This document shows, in pieces, positions 2,535-8,410 of a stretch of DNA of 29,638 nucleotides; position 1 is the stretch's first letter; each line of letters starts with the position of its first letter. The notes under the pieces are model-generated. The model saw only the letters and a list, made by a program, of their open reading frames with translations, was not told the DNA's origin and did not search any database. The position numbers and the translations under genes were made by a program. This DNA comes from a virus, in the IMG/VR virus record IMGVR_UViG_3300020603_000094, positions 1 through 29,638 of that record; one strand, written 5' to 3'.

Positions 2535-4445
2535 TTATATGGGAACGTAGTTTTTATTTCTTGATGCTATCCAACTTGATTCTGTTGTACGAGAGCTGGG
2601 CATACCTGTAATAATATTATTATTCGTCGCTCCTTTGTTGTTAATGTTTGTTATCGGTGCATTTACAACATTAGCATTACTTTTCTTCTCTTCTTTTGAT
2701 CTTTCATTCTCACGAGATACGCTATCCATTTTTGTGCCATCAGTTCGTTTGATGGGTTCAGGATCTATTTTTGCTCCATCAGTTTGTTTGACTGGTTCAT
2801 ATGCATTAATATCTGTTGTGGGAGATGTAGATGTGGGATATGTTGGTTCCCCAGTAGGTGAACTTGGTTTAGGAGCACTTGGTTCGGGAGCACTTGGTTC
2901 GGGTGAACTTGGTTCGGGTGAACTTGGTTCGGGTGAACTTGGTTCGGGAGCACTTTCACCTTTATTCTGAAGAAAATCTGTAGCTGCACTTTGCACCATT
3001 TGTGTTAGTTCTGGCATTCTTTGTCCAGCTGAGGGGTCTTTTTCTGGTTCTATTTCATATGCTTCTGTATATACATCGCGAGCGAGTGATGCTACTGTAG
3101 CAGGAATGGCTGTTGCAGCTGATCCAAGTCCAGATACAGCTTCAAGACCAGCACCGACCCAATCACCTTTAACCAAACGACCCACTGCCATTCCCAATCC
3201 TATTGCGGCTCCAAGAAGAGGCACAGATTTCCCCACAGCACCAAGCAATGCTTTTGGCACTTTTTTAGCGATAATCTTAGCAATTTTTGATTTGAGTCCC
3301 TCTTTTGTTGCAGTCTTTGCAGCAGCTTCGGCACCCTCAGCCACAACCTTTGTACCTGCAGTCTTTGCTACGGCTTTAGCCCCATCAGCAGCAACTTTGG
3401 TTTCTGCTATCTTTGTCCAAGGCATTGCAGCTGCTCCAGCAATTCCAGCACCAATTGCACCAATTTTACCAATTTTACCAATTTTTTTGAGACCAACGTT
3501 TTTGAGTATACTTCCTCCTATAGATTTCGCGGCGCCAATTCCTTTTTTAAAAGTTCCCCCAATTGTTTTGGCGCCACCAATGATACCCAATACACTAGAT
3601 AACATACCACCAAATCCAGATTGATCTTCAGGTTGATCTTTTTCATCTTTTTGATCTTCTTTATTTTTGCCTTTCATTAATGATGGAGATTTTCCACCAG
3701 CTTTCTTGCCAGCTTCACGAGCAGCTTCACGAGCAGCGTCATTTGCTTCTTCAGCCAGCTTTGCATTTTCTTTTAAGATTTTATCTTGACTGGTTTCTGC
3801 ATCAACAATTTCTTTTTCTAGTGAAACACTTTCTTCTTGACTCTTTTTGATATCTAAGAGTGTATTGAGTATTGCCGTTTCTTGGTTAGCGTCGTCTTTT
3901 GTTAGAAATTTTGCTCCTTTTTCGGTTTTTTCATATAAACGACCTTCTGAAGTTACTTTTGGTGTTGCCCCCATGGAGTTAGCAATCTGATCAACACGAA
4001 CTGCAATTACATTAAGTGTTTTTAATAAATCATTAACTCCACCAATTTCTTTAGGATTCTCGGTGATATCTTCTGGTGAGTCCGGTGTGGTTGGTTCTAA
4101 TCCAGCTTCTTTTCTAATCTCTTCTTCTGATCGTCCCAAAGCTTTCGCAGTCAACACACCAGCTAACTTACTGTCTCCTGTCATGGATTTGATGATATTC
4201 ACAGGATCAAGCATTTTTTTGAAAGATTCTGTTTTTTCTTTACCGCGTTCTACTAACGATTCTTTCAAAGAAGAAAATATACCCTTTCCTTCTGCCAACT
4301 TTGTTGCTATCTTGTCTGATACTGTTTCGGGTTTTTCAGATTTATTGGATTCCTCAAGTGTTTTCTTGATGCCACCCAGCGCAGATAACACTTCTTTTCT
4401 AGTGTCAGCATCAAACTTGACAGTTGTTGGTTTTTCTATTGGCAT
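2535..4445 (-). CDS. 29: Tail tape measure protein, gp29-like
   Basis: 636 residues; T4 gp29 has 590. The tape measure fills the tube lumen and sets tail length. The call rests on composition and position more than motif. There is a charged helical N-terminus, a coiled-coil stretch (about 195-245), then glycine/alanine-rich hydrophobic segments (about 277-345 and 395-450: LLGAAIGLGMAVGRLVKGDWVGAGLE, split here for length as a G/A-rich membrane-like region, then SLARDVY). A proline-rich linker with five-residue repeats follows (about 497-530), and the C-terminus is short and polar. It lies directly after gp26 and its frameshift extension, where chaperones of tape measures usually sit, starting 3 nt past the extension's stop. 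No strong ribosome site precedes the ATG, which suggests coupling. An alternative is another large hub component. Confidence 0.7.
   Translation of the reverse strand: MPIEKPTTVKFDADTRKEVLSALGGIKKTLEESNKSEKPETVSDKIATKLAEGKGIFSSLKESLVERGKEKTESFKKMLDPVNIIKSMTGDSKLAGVLTAKALGRSEEEIRKEAGLEPTTPDSPEDITENPKEIGGVNDLLKTLNVIAVRVDQIANSMGATPKVTSEGRLYEKTEKGAKFLTKDDANQETAILNTLLDIKKSQEESVSLEKEIVDAETSQDKILKENAKLAEEANDAAREAAREAGKKAGGKSPSLMKGKNKEDQKDEKDQPEDQSGFGGMLSSVLGIIGGAKTIGGTFKKGIGAAKSIGGSILKNVGLKKIGKIGKIGAIGAGIAGAAAMPWTKIAETKVAADGAKAVAKTAGTKVVAEGAEAAAKTATKEGLKSKIAKIIAKKVPKALLGAVGKSVPLLGAAIGLGMAVGRLVKGDWVGAGLEAVSGLGSAATAIPATVASLARDVYTEAYEIEPEKDPSAGQRMPELTQMVQSAATDFLQNKGESAPEPSSPEPSSPEPSSPEPSAPEPSAPKPSSPTGEPTYPTSTSPTTDINAYEPVKQTDGAKIDPEPIKRTDGTKMDSVSRENERSKEEKKSNANVVNAPITNINNKGATNNNIITGMPSSRTTESSWIASRNKNYVPI
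2866..2955. repeat. 15-bp tandem repeats encoding a Pro-rich linker
   Basis: Six consecutive 15-bp units (GGTTCGGGTGAACTT and GGTTCGGGAGCACTT variants; the first is GGTTTAGGAGCACTT) lie inside the tape measure gene. On the coding strand they give repeats of PEPSS/PEPSA at about residues 497-527. Three units are identical (2896-2940), which points to recent slippage expansion. Confidence 0.9.
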
Positions 4446-4448
4446 ATT

Positions 4449-4637
4449 CTATCTCTTTTTTCTGAGTTCTAGTCTTTCATTTTCTTCTTTCACGTATTGG
4501 TTAACCATAGTAATATAGATTAAACGTTCCCATGGCAACATATTTTCTAATTCCTGAATAGAATATCCATGGTGTTGAGCCATAGCGAAGTTTGTTCGAA
4601 AATAGTTTTCCAATGTATCATAACGAAAGATTAGACG
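4449..4637 (-). CDS. Probable -1 frameshift extension of gp26 (tail chaperone, gp51 position)
   Basis: A short frame downstream of gp26, readable from the slippery site (codon at 4637-4635) to the stop at 4451-4449: 62 codons. It contains YDTLENYFRTNFA, then MAQHHGYSIQELENMLPWER and LIYITMVNQYVKEENERLELRKKR in two blocks. The YS-x-x-E-(L/I)-x-NM-x-P-(W/F)-ER pattern is typical of short tail-assembly chaperone extensions encoded just before tape measures. An ATG at 4583 could give a free 44-residue protein, but no Shine-Dalgarno sequence precedes it, and the frame looks protein-like (YDTLENYF) upstream of that ATG. Both points favour production by frameshifting as a gp26 fusion of about 305 residues. 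T4 has gene 51 at this place; I cannot show homology to it. Confidence 0.65.
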   Translation of the reverse strand, partial: RLIFRYDTLENYFRTNFAMAQHHGYSIQELENMLPWERLIYITMVNQYVKEENERLELRKKR

Positions 4638-5365
4638 AAAAAACTTTCAATTCCCTTAGCCTCAATAATTTCCTGATGTTTACACGATGGGCAGACAAAA
4701 TTAACAGTCAAAGTATTTTTTGGTAATGTATTAAAGAAATGATCAAGTTTTTTAAGTTGTTGTGGAGACAATGATTCAATAAACTCTAATAATTCCTGTT
4801 TAGAAATGTCTTTAATATAATGCACACTTTGCTCATCAAACACACTTTCAATACAACTAAGAATAATATCAATGGCATCATCCGCAGTGAAGTTTTCAAT
4901 CAAAGCCTTGGAAAATTTTGAAAACAAAGGATACTGCATCACCACTCCAATTGTGTTTGTCAACATAATTGTTTTTGTGTGATCGGGAAATGTTGTTGGA
5001 GTAAAATTAACAAGATTGATCTCATAATCGGATTTGGTTCCACATGTTGCCTGTGTACCATCATCTTTAGTGATTGTTGCGTTACACTTATAACGAAGAT
5101 TGATTATTTCTCCAATAGATCGTGCCCGAATTTGCAATAACAAATATTCTATATCAAAAATAGGTAATTCATCAATCGTCGGACCACTAATAAGACAATT
5201 AGATAAGACTTGTTTAATATTTGAGATAATTGTTTCTGAATCATCTGAGTGTGCAGCCATCAAAAACAACTTTTCTTCTTTGACTAGAAATGAACGATAT
5301 TGTACGCGTGTGCCAGACGGCAACACCGTCTCATATATCGGTACATCTATCTTTGGTAATGCCAT
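4631..5365 (-). CDS. 26: gp26-like baseplate hub / tail assembly protein
   Basis: 244 residues (T4 gp26 is 208). It fits the T4 baseplate protein family that includes gp26: an N-terminal MALPKIDVPIYETVLPSGT, then FLVKEEKLFLMA, a helical ILSNCL region, and DIEYLLLQIRARSIGE. The latter is followed by paired cysteines (C94, C108) and a C-terminal CPSC (C225, C228), suggesting a split zinc ribbon. The role in T4 is in hub and tail assembly. Its place before the tape measure, together with a slippery sequence at codons 242-243, suggests it works as the short form of a tape-measure chaperone pair, by analogy with lambda gpG/gpGT (inference). The ribosome site GAGGTG lies just upstream of the ATG. 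It starts 8 nt after the gp54 stop. Confidence 0.8.
   Translation of the reverse strand: MALPKIDVPIYETVLPSGTRVQYRSFLVKEEKLFLMAAHSDDSETIISNIKQVLSNCLISGPTIDELPIFDIEYLLLQIRARSIGEIINLRYKCNATITKDDGTQATCGTKSDYEINLVNFTPTTFPDHTKTIMLTNTIGVVMQYPLFSKFSKALIENFTADDAIDIILSCIESVFDEQSVHYIKDISKQELLEFIESLSPQQLKKLDHFFNTLPKNTLTVNFVCPSCKHQEIIEAKGIESFFV
4637..4657 (-). promoter_or_regulatory. Candidate -1 programmed ribosomal frameshift site
   Basis: Read on the minus strand: AAGGGA (4657-4652), 8 nt, then T TTT TTC (4643-4637) in the gp26 frame, followed by GTC TAA. The heptamer is a classic X XXY YYZ slippery sequence in the correct phase. A Shine-Dalgarno-like stretch 8 nt upstream resembles the stimulator arrangement of E. 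coli dnaX. A one-base backward slip enters the 62-codon extension frame. I see no strong downstream hairpin. Confidence 0.65.
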
Positions 5366-5373
5366 AATTCACC

Positions 5374-6309
5374 TCATATTGATGTGGACCCAGGAAGTAT
5401 TCCTTTAACTTTTCGCTTGAGCATTTCATTCTCCTCATTAATCTTCTGTATGAGACGGCGGGTGTCGGCATTGGATTGTTTGGCGAGCCTCAAAACTTCT
5501 CCTGCACGTTGCAATTCCGCCCTTTCTCCACTATCAGTGCCAGCTCCACCAGTGCCTGGTGGAGAACTAGGTGGATTCGTGGCTTGAGTTTTAGTTGAGT
5601 ATCCAGGTAATTCTTTTTCAATTTCCGCTATTCTTGCAATTTCTCGAAAATTTCTAGTTGTATCTTCTAAATCTTCAAGTGATTTGGGTGTCGCTTCATA
5701 AAAAGCTGGGGATTGAGTCGGATCTGTTAAATCATTAACTGTCGCAAAATTTGTTTGCATTTTCTTTTCATCAATAATATAATATTCATAGAAGAATGTT
5801 ACATTTAGTTTGTGGGGTGCATCATCACCCCACGATGTAGTTAATTGATTTATGTTAGTTGGAAATGCCCGAAATAATTGAAACTGAAGAATAGTATTGA
5901 GAGATTCGGTGGTACCACTGACATCATACTGTCTTACGAAAATATCAGTTACGATATCATCAATATAATGTATTGTATTGGTTTCAGAATCAAAGATTTG
6001 ATTCATCCATCTTTCAAAAAATTTACGAATATCCATTTCTGCTGTGTCTACGAAGGTGAACGTGGTCTCAGCATAGATGGAGTCATAGGGTGTTTTATAG
6101 ATTGGTCCATAGATTCTATTATCTGTTGTGCCAATCTGTCTTCCAGGCAATTCAGCTGACTCGCATCGAAGTGTTAAAAGTGGTGCGATGCCTGTTGAAT
6201 CAGGCTCGATAACAACCACAGGTGGAGTTAATTGTACATCAAAATGACTGGTTTTCGCTATTCCGCGTTCTCGAATATCTGCTAAAAATTCACTAATATT
6301 TCCAGGCAT
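5374..6309 (-). CDS. 54: gp54-like baseplate tail-tube initiator
   Basis: 311 residues (T4 gp54 is 320). gp54 sits on the hub and starts polymerisation of the tube; it shares the gp19 tube-protein fold. Supporting blocks are AKTSHFDVQLTPP, CESAELPGRQIGTTDNRIYG, PIYKTPYDSIYAETTFTFV, FFERWMNQI, and AFPTNINQLTTSWGDDAPH with LNVTFFYEYYI. These give the ELPG-x-x-x-x-T-x-x-x-x-YGP and SWG..(H/K)-L-x-V-x-F-x-Y-x-YY signatures of T4-like tube-type proteins. A Gly/Pro-rich linker (about residues 250-262) leads to a charged C-terminal helix (about 265-305). The start overlaps the previous gene's stop by one base. In T4, 48 and 54 are adjacent; here 54 is on the opposite strand from 48. Confidence 0.85.
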   Translation of the reverse strand: MPGNISEFLADIRERGIAKTSHFDVQLTPPVVVIEPDSTGIAPLLTLRCESAELPGRQIGTTDNRIYGPIYKTPYDSIYAETTFTFVDTAEMDIRKFFERWMNQIFDSETNTIHYIDDIVTDIFVRQYDVSGTTESLNTILQFQLFRAFPTNINQLTTSWGDDAPHKLNVTFFYEYYIIDEKKMQTNFATVNDLTDPTQSPAFYEATPKSLEDLEDTTRNFREIARIAEIEKELPGYSTKTQATNPPSSPPGTGGAGTDSGERAELQRAGEVLRLAKQSNADTRRLIQKINEENEMLKRKVKGILPGSTSI

Positions 6310-6894: not shown

Positions 6895-6904
6895 GTATTT
6901 ATTA
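6895..6904 (-). promoter_or_regulatory. Late promoter, AATAAATA type, leaderless geometry
   Basis: TAATAAATAC on the minus strand. If AATAAATA (6903-6896) occupies -13 to -6 as TATAAATA does in T4, +1 is 6890, the A of the ATG of the 193-aa gene. The first TAA is the gp4 stop codon. Confidence 0.55.
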
Positions 6905-7333
6905 GAGCCCGAGGTCATTTTCAGTGATTATTTTGAATTCCCAACCATGGTCCTTACAAAACTCTTCGGCTGCCTGCCACTTTGCTTGGTTGACTGCATA
7001 TGTCTTGACTTCCTGTAGAAACTTTTGCGTCTGTCGTTTGGGGGTCCGTAGGGTGGTCTGAGCGAGGGGTTTGACCTCTAGAATATAGGTAACATTGGAC
7101 CCATCTTGCTTCTTCACCTTGACGATGAAGTCGGGAAAGTACCGATGCACACAGTGGTCAACAGGTGAGACATATTTGATGGGTAGTTCTTCTGATGCCC
7201 ACCACTCTACCTGGGGATGCAGATCCAGTTGACGCATGACTTGCTGTTCCCAAGATGATCGATAGATGATCTGATGGGGGTTTCCTCGATACTTTTGAGG
7301 GTGCTTGGGGACGAATTTACCACGATAGGTCAT
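6902..7333 (-). CDS. 4: gp4-like head completion protein
   Basis: 143 residues (T4 gp4 is about 150). gp4 acts in late head maturation before tail joining and has a nuclease-like fold. The family signature is clear: YRGKFVPKHPQKYRGNP, IIYRSSWEQQVMRQLD, VEWWASEELPIKYVSPVD, HRYFPDFIVKV and YILEVKP. The E...D...E-x-K arrangement (W-E, YFPDF, LEVKP) is that of PD-(D/E)xK-like nucleases. I chose the ATG at 7333 because the family begins with an MxYRGK/YRGNP segment. The longer frame to 7411 runs across the divergent gp48 start and promoters and is not believable. Its late promoter is at 7350-7359. Confidence 0.9.
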   Translation of the reverse strand: MTYRGKFVPKHPQKYRGNPHQIIYRSSWEQQVMRQLDLHPQVEWWASEELPIKYVSPVDHCVHRYFPDFIVKVKKQDGSNVTYILEVKPLAQTTLRTPKRQTQKFLQEVKTYAVNQAKWQAAEEFCKDHGWEFKIITENDLGL

Positions 7334-7340
7334 ATAAATA
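7333..7340 (+). promoter_or_regulatory. Late promoter for gp48, exact TATAAATA
   Basis: This is the exact T4 late consensus octamer, 32 nt before the gp48 ATG. With T4 spacing, +1 is near 7346 and the leader of about 27 nt contains AAGGA. The first base is shared with the gp4 start codon on the other strand. Confidence 0.7.
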
Positions 7341-7349
7341 ATCTCAGTT

Positions 7350-7359
7350 GTATTTATTA
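7350..7359 (-). promoter_or_regulatory. Late promoter for gp4, AATAAATA type
   Basis: TAATAAATAC on the minus strand. With T4 spacing, +1 is near 7345, giving a 12-nt leader that begins GAG. It is divergent from, and 10 nt away from, the gp48 promoter. Confidence 0.6.
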
Positions 7360-7372
7360 CAAGGACTCTACA

Positions 7373-8410
7373 ATGGCTGAACCCAATCCAATTAATCCGC
7401 TGTTTGCTCAAAAGGGAACAGGGGCACTGAGTGCTTTAGAAGAAAGTAAGTTTAAGTATAGCCAACTCAGATATCCACTTGATGTTGATAGTAATAAACG
7501 TTTTTCGTACTGGATGAAGTTTAATGTTTTAATGAGTATGCGCAGTAAGTATGCTGAAAAATTAAGTTTTGGAGATTCAGACCAATTTAGGACAATGAAA
7601 GATCAACAGGATGCCATATGGAAAACACGCGAAGCTGGGAATGTCAACCGTGAGGGTGCGGGATGGCAGGTCTCGCAATTCTTTAGACCTCAAGTTGTTG
7701 GAACGAAGCAAAGTATACTTTTATATATGCCAGATACGTTGAATTGGAATTTTAAAAATAGTTGGGACGAGGCTAATGTTCAGGAAATCATGGGAAAGTC
7801 GGGTCTGGCTTTGGAAGCTCTCAATACGGGAAGGTCATGGATATCTGGAATAATGAAGGCAGTGACCGGCAATGCTGGGAATCTGTTTGCTGGTAAGGCA
7901 AATACTACGTTGGCAGCCGGAGCGGAAAGTGTTGCTACGGGGTTAGGACTTGGGGATGCAGGAACAAATTTAGCAGTTCAAGCAACAGGATATGCATTTA
8001 ATCCTGGAGTTGAAGTTTTATACAAATCACCTACGTTACGCGAATTTCAATTTGAATTTATTTTTGCTCCTCGCAACAAAAAAGAAGCGGAGTCTGTTAT
8101 TGAGATTATTCAAATGTTTAAGTTTCATTCAGCTCCTGAATTTATATCTAATGATGCAGGAAGATATTATATTCCTCCGTCTCAATTTGATATTGGATTT
8201 TATGGGCGTATGGGTGATGGTAGCACGGGGGAGATTTGGCAATTAGGAAAAATTAAGTCTCAATGCGTCCTCGATAACGTGACTGTGAATTATGGACAAA
8301 GTGGAAAATTTGCAGTTTTTGAAGATGGCACTCCTACAAATATTCAATTACAATTGAATTTTAAAGAGACATCCTATATCACTAAAGAAGATGTGGAGCA
8401 AGGCTTCTAA
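7373..8410 (+). CDS. 48: gp48-like baseplate tail-tube cap
   Basis: 345 residues (T4 gp48 is 364). gp48 caps the hub and, with gp54, seeds the tail tube. The N-terminus has LRYPLDVDSNKRFSYWMKF. Then come ILLYMPDTLNWNFKNSWDE, a Gly/Ala-rich middle (about 150-215), and NPGVEVLYKSPTLREFQFEF with FAPRNKKEAESVIEIIQMFK. The C-terminus has FHSAPEF, YIPPSQFDIGFY, LDNVTVNYGQSG and PTNIQLQLNFKE. The P-x-LR-x-F-x-F-x-F...P-R....E....I.x-FK..x-P pattern is characteristic of T4-like tube-baseplate proteins. I chose the ATG at 7373 (AAGGA upstream); frames reaching back to 7274 run through the promoter and gp4. The stop overlaps the gp53 start (TAATG). Confidence 0.9.
   Translation: MAEPNPINPLFAQKGTGALSALEESKFKYSQLRYPLDVDSNKRFSYWMKFNVLMSMRSKYAEKLSFGDSDQFRTMKDQQDAIWKTREAGNVNREGAGWQVSQFFRPQVVGTKQSILLYMPDTLNWNFKNSWDEANVQEIMGKSGLALEALNTGRSWISGIMKAVTGNAGNLFAGKANTTLAAGAESVATGLGLGDAGTNLAVQATGYAFNPGVEVLYKSPTLREFQFEFIFAPRNKKEAESVIEIIQMFKFHSAPEFISNDAGRYYIPPSQFDIGFYGRMGDGSTGEIWQLGKIKSQCVLDNVTVNYGQSGKFAVFEDGTPTNIQLQLNFKETSYITKEDVEQGF

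Follow-up and report, generated by a model that had tools for sequence, protein, structure and literature searches.

The window analysed here, a 29.6-kb virus fragment, carries on its minus strand a 244-aa gp26 homologue (4631..5365), the predicted short form of the tail-assembly chaperone (TAC), read in the zero frame. In a profile search this protein matched PF12322 (T4_baseplate) with an E-value of 1.4e-57 and 195.4 bits, against a curated cut-off of 24.5, and in PHROGs it matched phrog_150 (baseplate hub; E 1.3e-63). A tail-tube-like gene lies immediately upstream (5374..6309, minus strand; phrog_45 tail tube, E 4.8e-40 in PHROGs). Further along, the tail-tube-cap gene (7274-8410, plus strand) and the head-closure gene (6902-7411, minus strand) have overlapping starts when each is taken as its longest ORF; their true starts probably give shorter genes.

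The 3' end of gp26 reads, on the minus strand, GCT AAG GGA ATT GAA AGT TTT TTC GTC TAA. It includes a Shine-Dalgarno (SD)-like element, AAGGGA (4652..4657, minus strand), identified as a candidate frameshift stimulator by its anti-SD pairing, and, after a spacer of 8 nt (ATTGAAAG, from 4657-4652 to the heptamer), the heptamer T TTT TTC (4637..4643, minus strand), a candidate -1 slip site placed one codon (GTC) before the stop codon TAA at 4633-4631. An initial annotation had proposed a -1 frameshift at this motif, and every coordinate it gave was correct; the heptamer at 4643-4637 is indeed in the X XXY YYZ phase suited to a tandem slip. The slipped frame (4449..4637, minus strand) reads CGT CTA ATC and onward from 4637 to 4452, 62 codons in all, and ends in TAG at 4451-4449. 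The -1 frame as a whole is free of stops over 65 codons, beginning 13 nt ahead of the gp26 stop. Its first ATG lies 18 codons past the slip, within the conserved core, and would give a product of 44 aa, compared with a predicted fusion of 243 + 62 = 305 aa; we reproduced all three lengths given in the initial annotation. The 636-aa ORF that follows (2535..4445, minus strand, from the ORF list) has its ATG at 4445, three bases past the TAG, so the claimed spacing held. Since no family was found for this ORF in Pfam or PHROGs, the tape-measure name that had been attached to it is positional only. In Synechococcus phage S-PM2, the 1168-aa gene directly after gp51 (L003:2086-3111) has an ADP-ribosyltransferase-like domain at residues 65-218 (PF01129, E 2e-6), which is odd for a gene in the tape-measure position.

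The 62-codon extension matched phrog_634, "baseplate hub assembly catalyst", with an E-value of 7.3e-23, over profile positions 59-115 of 121 only. It also matched phrog_150 at positions 235-281 of 282, directly behind the gp26 domain. The two matches indicate that both families already include members recorded as a single protein.

We then considered whether the slip site is conserved. Across the larger ORFs of the window, in-frame T TTT TTC occurs once in 9,120 codons. Related loci were retrieved with single gp26 proteins as queries, as an alignment of 13 diverse gp26 sequences gave no conserved stretch for scanning; gp26 of nt-1 as query returned two loci only. The initial annotation had asked for a slippery site in relatives, and we found T TTT TTC at the same codons in all 80 loci kept as closest to the window (40-100% identity) and in 82 of 82 further loci of the frameshift (FS) type, obtained with cyanophage-like and KVP40-like queries. 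It is also present in S-PM2, P-SSM2, ACG-2014j, phiAS5, Marzo, PhiW-14, nt-1, OLIVR5 and Aeromonas phage 65.2. In distant phages the last base alone differs, giving T TTT TTA in XG4 and Rhizobium phage RHph_I1_18 and T TTT TTT (seven T) in phiM12, and these are the changes that the slip rule allows. One gp26 gene (L091:3001-3729) has an internal stop codon, leaving an open frame of 197 codons, and an intact terminal T TTT TTC.

The heptamer is conserved beyond what codon usage and protein constraint would give. When sequences were grouped at 90% identity, T TTT TTC was used in 87 of the 88 clusters that have Phe-Phe at the slip place; of 94 Phe-Phe pairs at other positions in these genes, 1 had it (Fisher P 2.5e-50, which is not a true probability because the sequences are related). 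Codon usage predicts the heptamer in 16% of cases, and 99% was observed. With clustering at 50% identity the proportion was 14/15, and the heptamer was kept in two phages of 54-56% GC.

Many genes of the window overlap the downstream gene in the -1 frame. Because open -1 frames are common in this compact genome, such a frame alone would prove little, and the case for frameshifting rests on comparison. A complete extension was present in 164 loci, of which 108 had no ATG in the first nine codons past the slip and 56 had an ATG within five codons. An SD sequence preceded the extension's first ATG in just 7 of the 164, compared to 76 of 122 for gp26's own start, in agreement with the earlier observation that this ATG lacks a ribosome site. 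The frame was also conserved ahead of the ATG, a further check that had been proposed: across the 164 loci, Arg occupied codon 0 in 97%, and Leu (codon 8) and an Asn were each present in 98%. In 72 independent pairs, substitutions counted by codon position in the -1 frame numbered 136/71/300, and the new frame is thus coding from the slip onward, with residues conserved ahead of any ATG. An independent TTG start was considered and rejected, as the Leu concerned is encoded by TTG in the window but by that codon in just 15 of 160 relatives. These comparisons indicate that translation enters the -1 frame at the slip and not at a separate start codon.

To characterize the candidate stimulators, we calculated anti-SD pairing over the 15 nt preceding the heptamer. 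The duplex energy at the window's element was -6.1 kcal/mol, and the mean over 111 distinct sequences was likewise -6.1 kcal/mol, compared to -1.1 kcal/mol for in-gene controls. Pairing at or below -4 kcal/mol was found in 87% of the 111 distinct relatives and in 8% of the controls. A conserved Gly codon within the SD-like element is also retained in T4-type gp26, so part of this signal may reflect protein constraint. Downstream RNA structure had a mean z of -1.8, being stronger in several relatives, P-SSM2 and nt-1 among them, and weak in the window (z -0.3). When a consensus hairpin was sought downstream, single sequences folded well but the structures shared within groups were weak or absent, so we propose no such hairpin for the window.

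In T4 the same family is represented by two genes. Both gp26 (E 9e-64) and gp51 (E 4e-52) belong to PF12322, and the two align with each other at E 2e-6. T4 gp26 matches the gp26 profile just to its end and stops at the junction, and gp51 is one protein with a gp26 domain and the extension, which matches phrog_634 too. Searches of whole records gave one PF12322 copy in each of the 18 single-gene phages sampled, all of which retain the -1 arrangement, and two copies in the 10 sampled T4-type phages, all of which lack the heptamer; in the gp26 of the latter, Phe-Phe is encoded as TTC TTT or lost. One of the 10 records shows three PF12322 matches, its gp51 being split. The gp51 of L185 is divided into ORFs of 126 and 153 codons, which may be a sequencing error or a broken gene. 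In RB43, gp51-like and gp26-like genes stand in tandem on the same strand, whereas the T4 pair is divergent. On a protein tree, all T4-type gp26 and gp51 grouped as a clade (100/99) separate from the single-copy phages, which include the Straboviridae phiAS5, 65.2, nt-1 and KVP40; several branches are long and the bootstrap had not settled. From these sequence relationships, T4 gp26 is best read as the short form without a slip site and gp51 as the long form fused in frame. The simplest history would start from one frame-shifted gene, which was replaced on a single occasion through duplication and fusion. The suggestion that a T4-type gp26/gp51 pair arises by frameshifting is thus supported for the window and its single-copy relatives, but not for T4 itself, where two genes supply the two forms.

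Some phages depart from the canonical site. All Ackermannviridae examined (L010, L193-L212) have GAR ATT TTC ATY TAA at the slip place, with an open -1 frame and no canonical heptamer; most have no ATG ahead of the extension core, and Limestonevirus has TAATG at the stop. The canonical heptamer is also missing from Vibrio phage K469, which reads CTT TTT GCG TAATG. A single tRNA-Phe slip or reinitiation may operate in these phages. A wider history is plausible, though we lean slightly against it as a whole: the gp26/gp51 frameshift would be ancestral to T4-like and Ackermannviridae-like phages and would have been replaced once, in T4-type Straboviridae, through a gene duplication in which one copy became permanently fused and the other lost its slip site, with Ackermannviridae keeping the architecture on their non-canonical site (GAR ATT TTC ATY TAA) by a single-tRNA slip. 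The ancestral frameshift and its single T4-type replacement may already be contained in Vladimirov et al. 2022, and the non-canonical slip of Ackermannviridae is perhaps absent from that work.

Collectively, the sequence evidence makes us highly confident that in this uncultured T4-like phage one gene gives two TAC forms by -1 slippage of the lambda gpG/gpGT type. Most ribosomes would stop at TAA and release gp26 as the short form of 244 aa. A minority would be held by the SD-like element upstream, slip one base back on U UUU UUC, with both tRNA-Phe re-pairing on UUU, and add 62 residues to give the 305-aa long form, whose C-terminal part corresponds to the gp51 of other records. The occurrence of slippage and its efficiency are predictions, as is chaperone action. 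If the proteins act as lambda gpG/gpGT do, the tape-measure protein would be coated by the short part, the extension would bring in the first subunits of the tail tube or hub, and both forms would leave before the tail is completed. The idea that the gp26/gp51 position uses a lambda-type trick is supported, with one refinement: the extension represents the C-terminal, gp51-type portion of the long chaperone form. By sequence, a short and a longer form share their N-terminus as gp26 and gp26-51, and T4 gp26 and gp51 are paralogues. An AlphaFold2 model of gp26 (mean pLDDT 88) was compared to the PDB using Foldseek; the HK97 TAC (2ob9) had the highest probability (0.47) among the 50 matches listed, with a non-significant E of 0.6, giving only a hint of fold similarity between the window's gp26 and the HK97 TAC. 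A model of T4-type gp51 gave no Foldseek match, and nothing relevant was found in PDB sequence searches with T4 gp26 and gp51.

The frameshift could be real and the proteins instead be structural parts of the hub or catalysts of hub assembly, with no role as tape-measure chaperones. T4 nomenclature points this way, naming gp26 a hub subunit and gp51 the hub assembly catalyst, and the next gene is not a tape measure in Ackermannviridae, K469 and PhiW-14. A review of T4 describes gp51 as essential and of unknown function, but it also states that the particle does not contain gp51, and it counts gp26 as well as gp51 among the hub assembly chaperones (PMC3004832). The title of Vladimirov et al. 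2022 and the text of papers citing it name T4-like TAC genes, and the weak fold match to the HK97 TAC also argues for the chaperone role, so that we consider the purely hub-related reading unlikely.

The remaining alternatives concern how, or whether, a fused product arises, and we consider each of them less probable again. One is that the extension is translated on its own as a small protein (gp51), either from an ATG or TTG within it or through termination-reinitiation where gp26 stops. This agrees with the free gp51 annotated in public records (S-PM2, P-SSM2, nt-1) and with the ATGs at or near the stop in some phages (TAATG, TGATG), including the 56 loci noted above. We find it very improbable, given that the window's first ATG lies inside the conserved core with conserved residues ahead of it, that early ATGs lack an SD, that the TTG codon is rarely kept, and that a free protein leaves the fixation of T TTT TTC unexplained. 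Transcriptional slippage on the T run could also yield the fused product, as the run has six T and, in phiM12, seven. Longer runs would be expected to favour RNA polymerase slippage, yet in 87 of 88 clusters a final C limits the run to six T, and the conserved X XXY YYZ phase and upstream SD-like element fit ribosomal slippage; we give the transcriptional route hardly any weight. Least credible is that the T run is a by-product of a conserved Phe-Phe motif and T-rich codon usage. Phe-Phe is a conserved protein motif and these AT-rich phages do prefer TTT (71%), but the excess over codon usage (99% against 16%) and the TTC TTT retained in some T4-type gp26, once a second gene supplies the extension, already refute this reading on comparative grounds.

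A 2016 review described the G-T frameshift as conserved in long-tailed phages "except T4" (PMC5009743). T4-like TAC genes were identified by Vladimirov, Gautam and Davidson (2022, Virology 566:9-15), and papers citing that study report from it that T4-like TAC-N genes use poly-T stretches as signals for frameshifting (PMC12846349) and that in some T4-like phages the place of a frameshift is taken by two genes, one short and one a longer fusion (PMC10274946). So far as these citing papers show, the core of the T4-like TAC frameshift was therefore published in 2022. As the citing text credits the same study with the two-gene T4 solution, we dropped any claim of novelty for the T4 paralogy. With this kind of frameshift already known, on the word of the citing papers, what needs correction is that gp51 is annotated as if it were a free gene. 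In many T4-like genomes gp51 is annotated separately or, as in ACG-2014j and Aeromonas phage 65.2, missed, where the sequence points to the frame-shifted end of gp26. Corrected annotation would give the right chaperone pair for a phage group that is among the commonest in water. It would also define a natural experiment, in which the assembly ratio is set by ribosome slippage in single-copy phages and by two genes in T4.

The arrangement in the window resembles three known systems. Lambda gpG/gpGT, to which the initial annotation had compared the locus, has the same order of tail tube, chaperone, -1 extension and a next gene in the tape-measure place, with V before G-T-H corresponding to the tail-tube-like gene just upstream here, and it makes two forms by a -1 slip close to the 3' end, as predicted here. 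Gene order, by position, and two-form logic fit lambda, and the fold may fit weakly. The lambda slip site is G GGA AAG, compared to U UUU UUC in the window, where the extension is 62 aa. E. coli dnaX shares an SD-like element upstream of a -1 heptamer. Its site is A AAA AAG with a 10-nt spacing and a strong downstream hairpin, whereas the window has a spacing of 8 nt and a weak hairpin. T4 gp26/gp51 belong to the same PF12322 family, and gp51 has the same C-terminal extension; unlike the window, T4 has two divergent genes, no slip site and the long form fused in frame.
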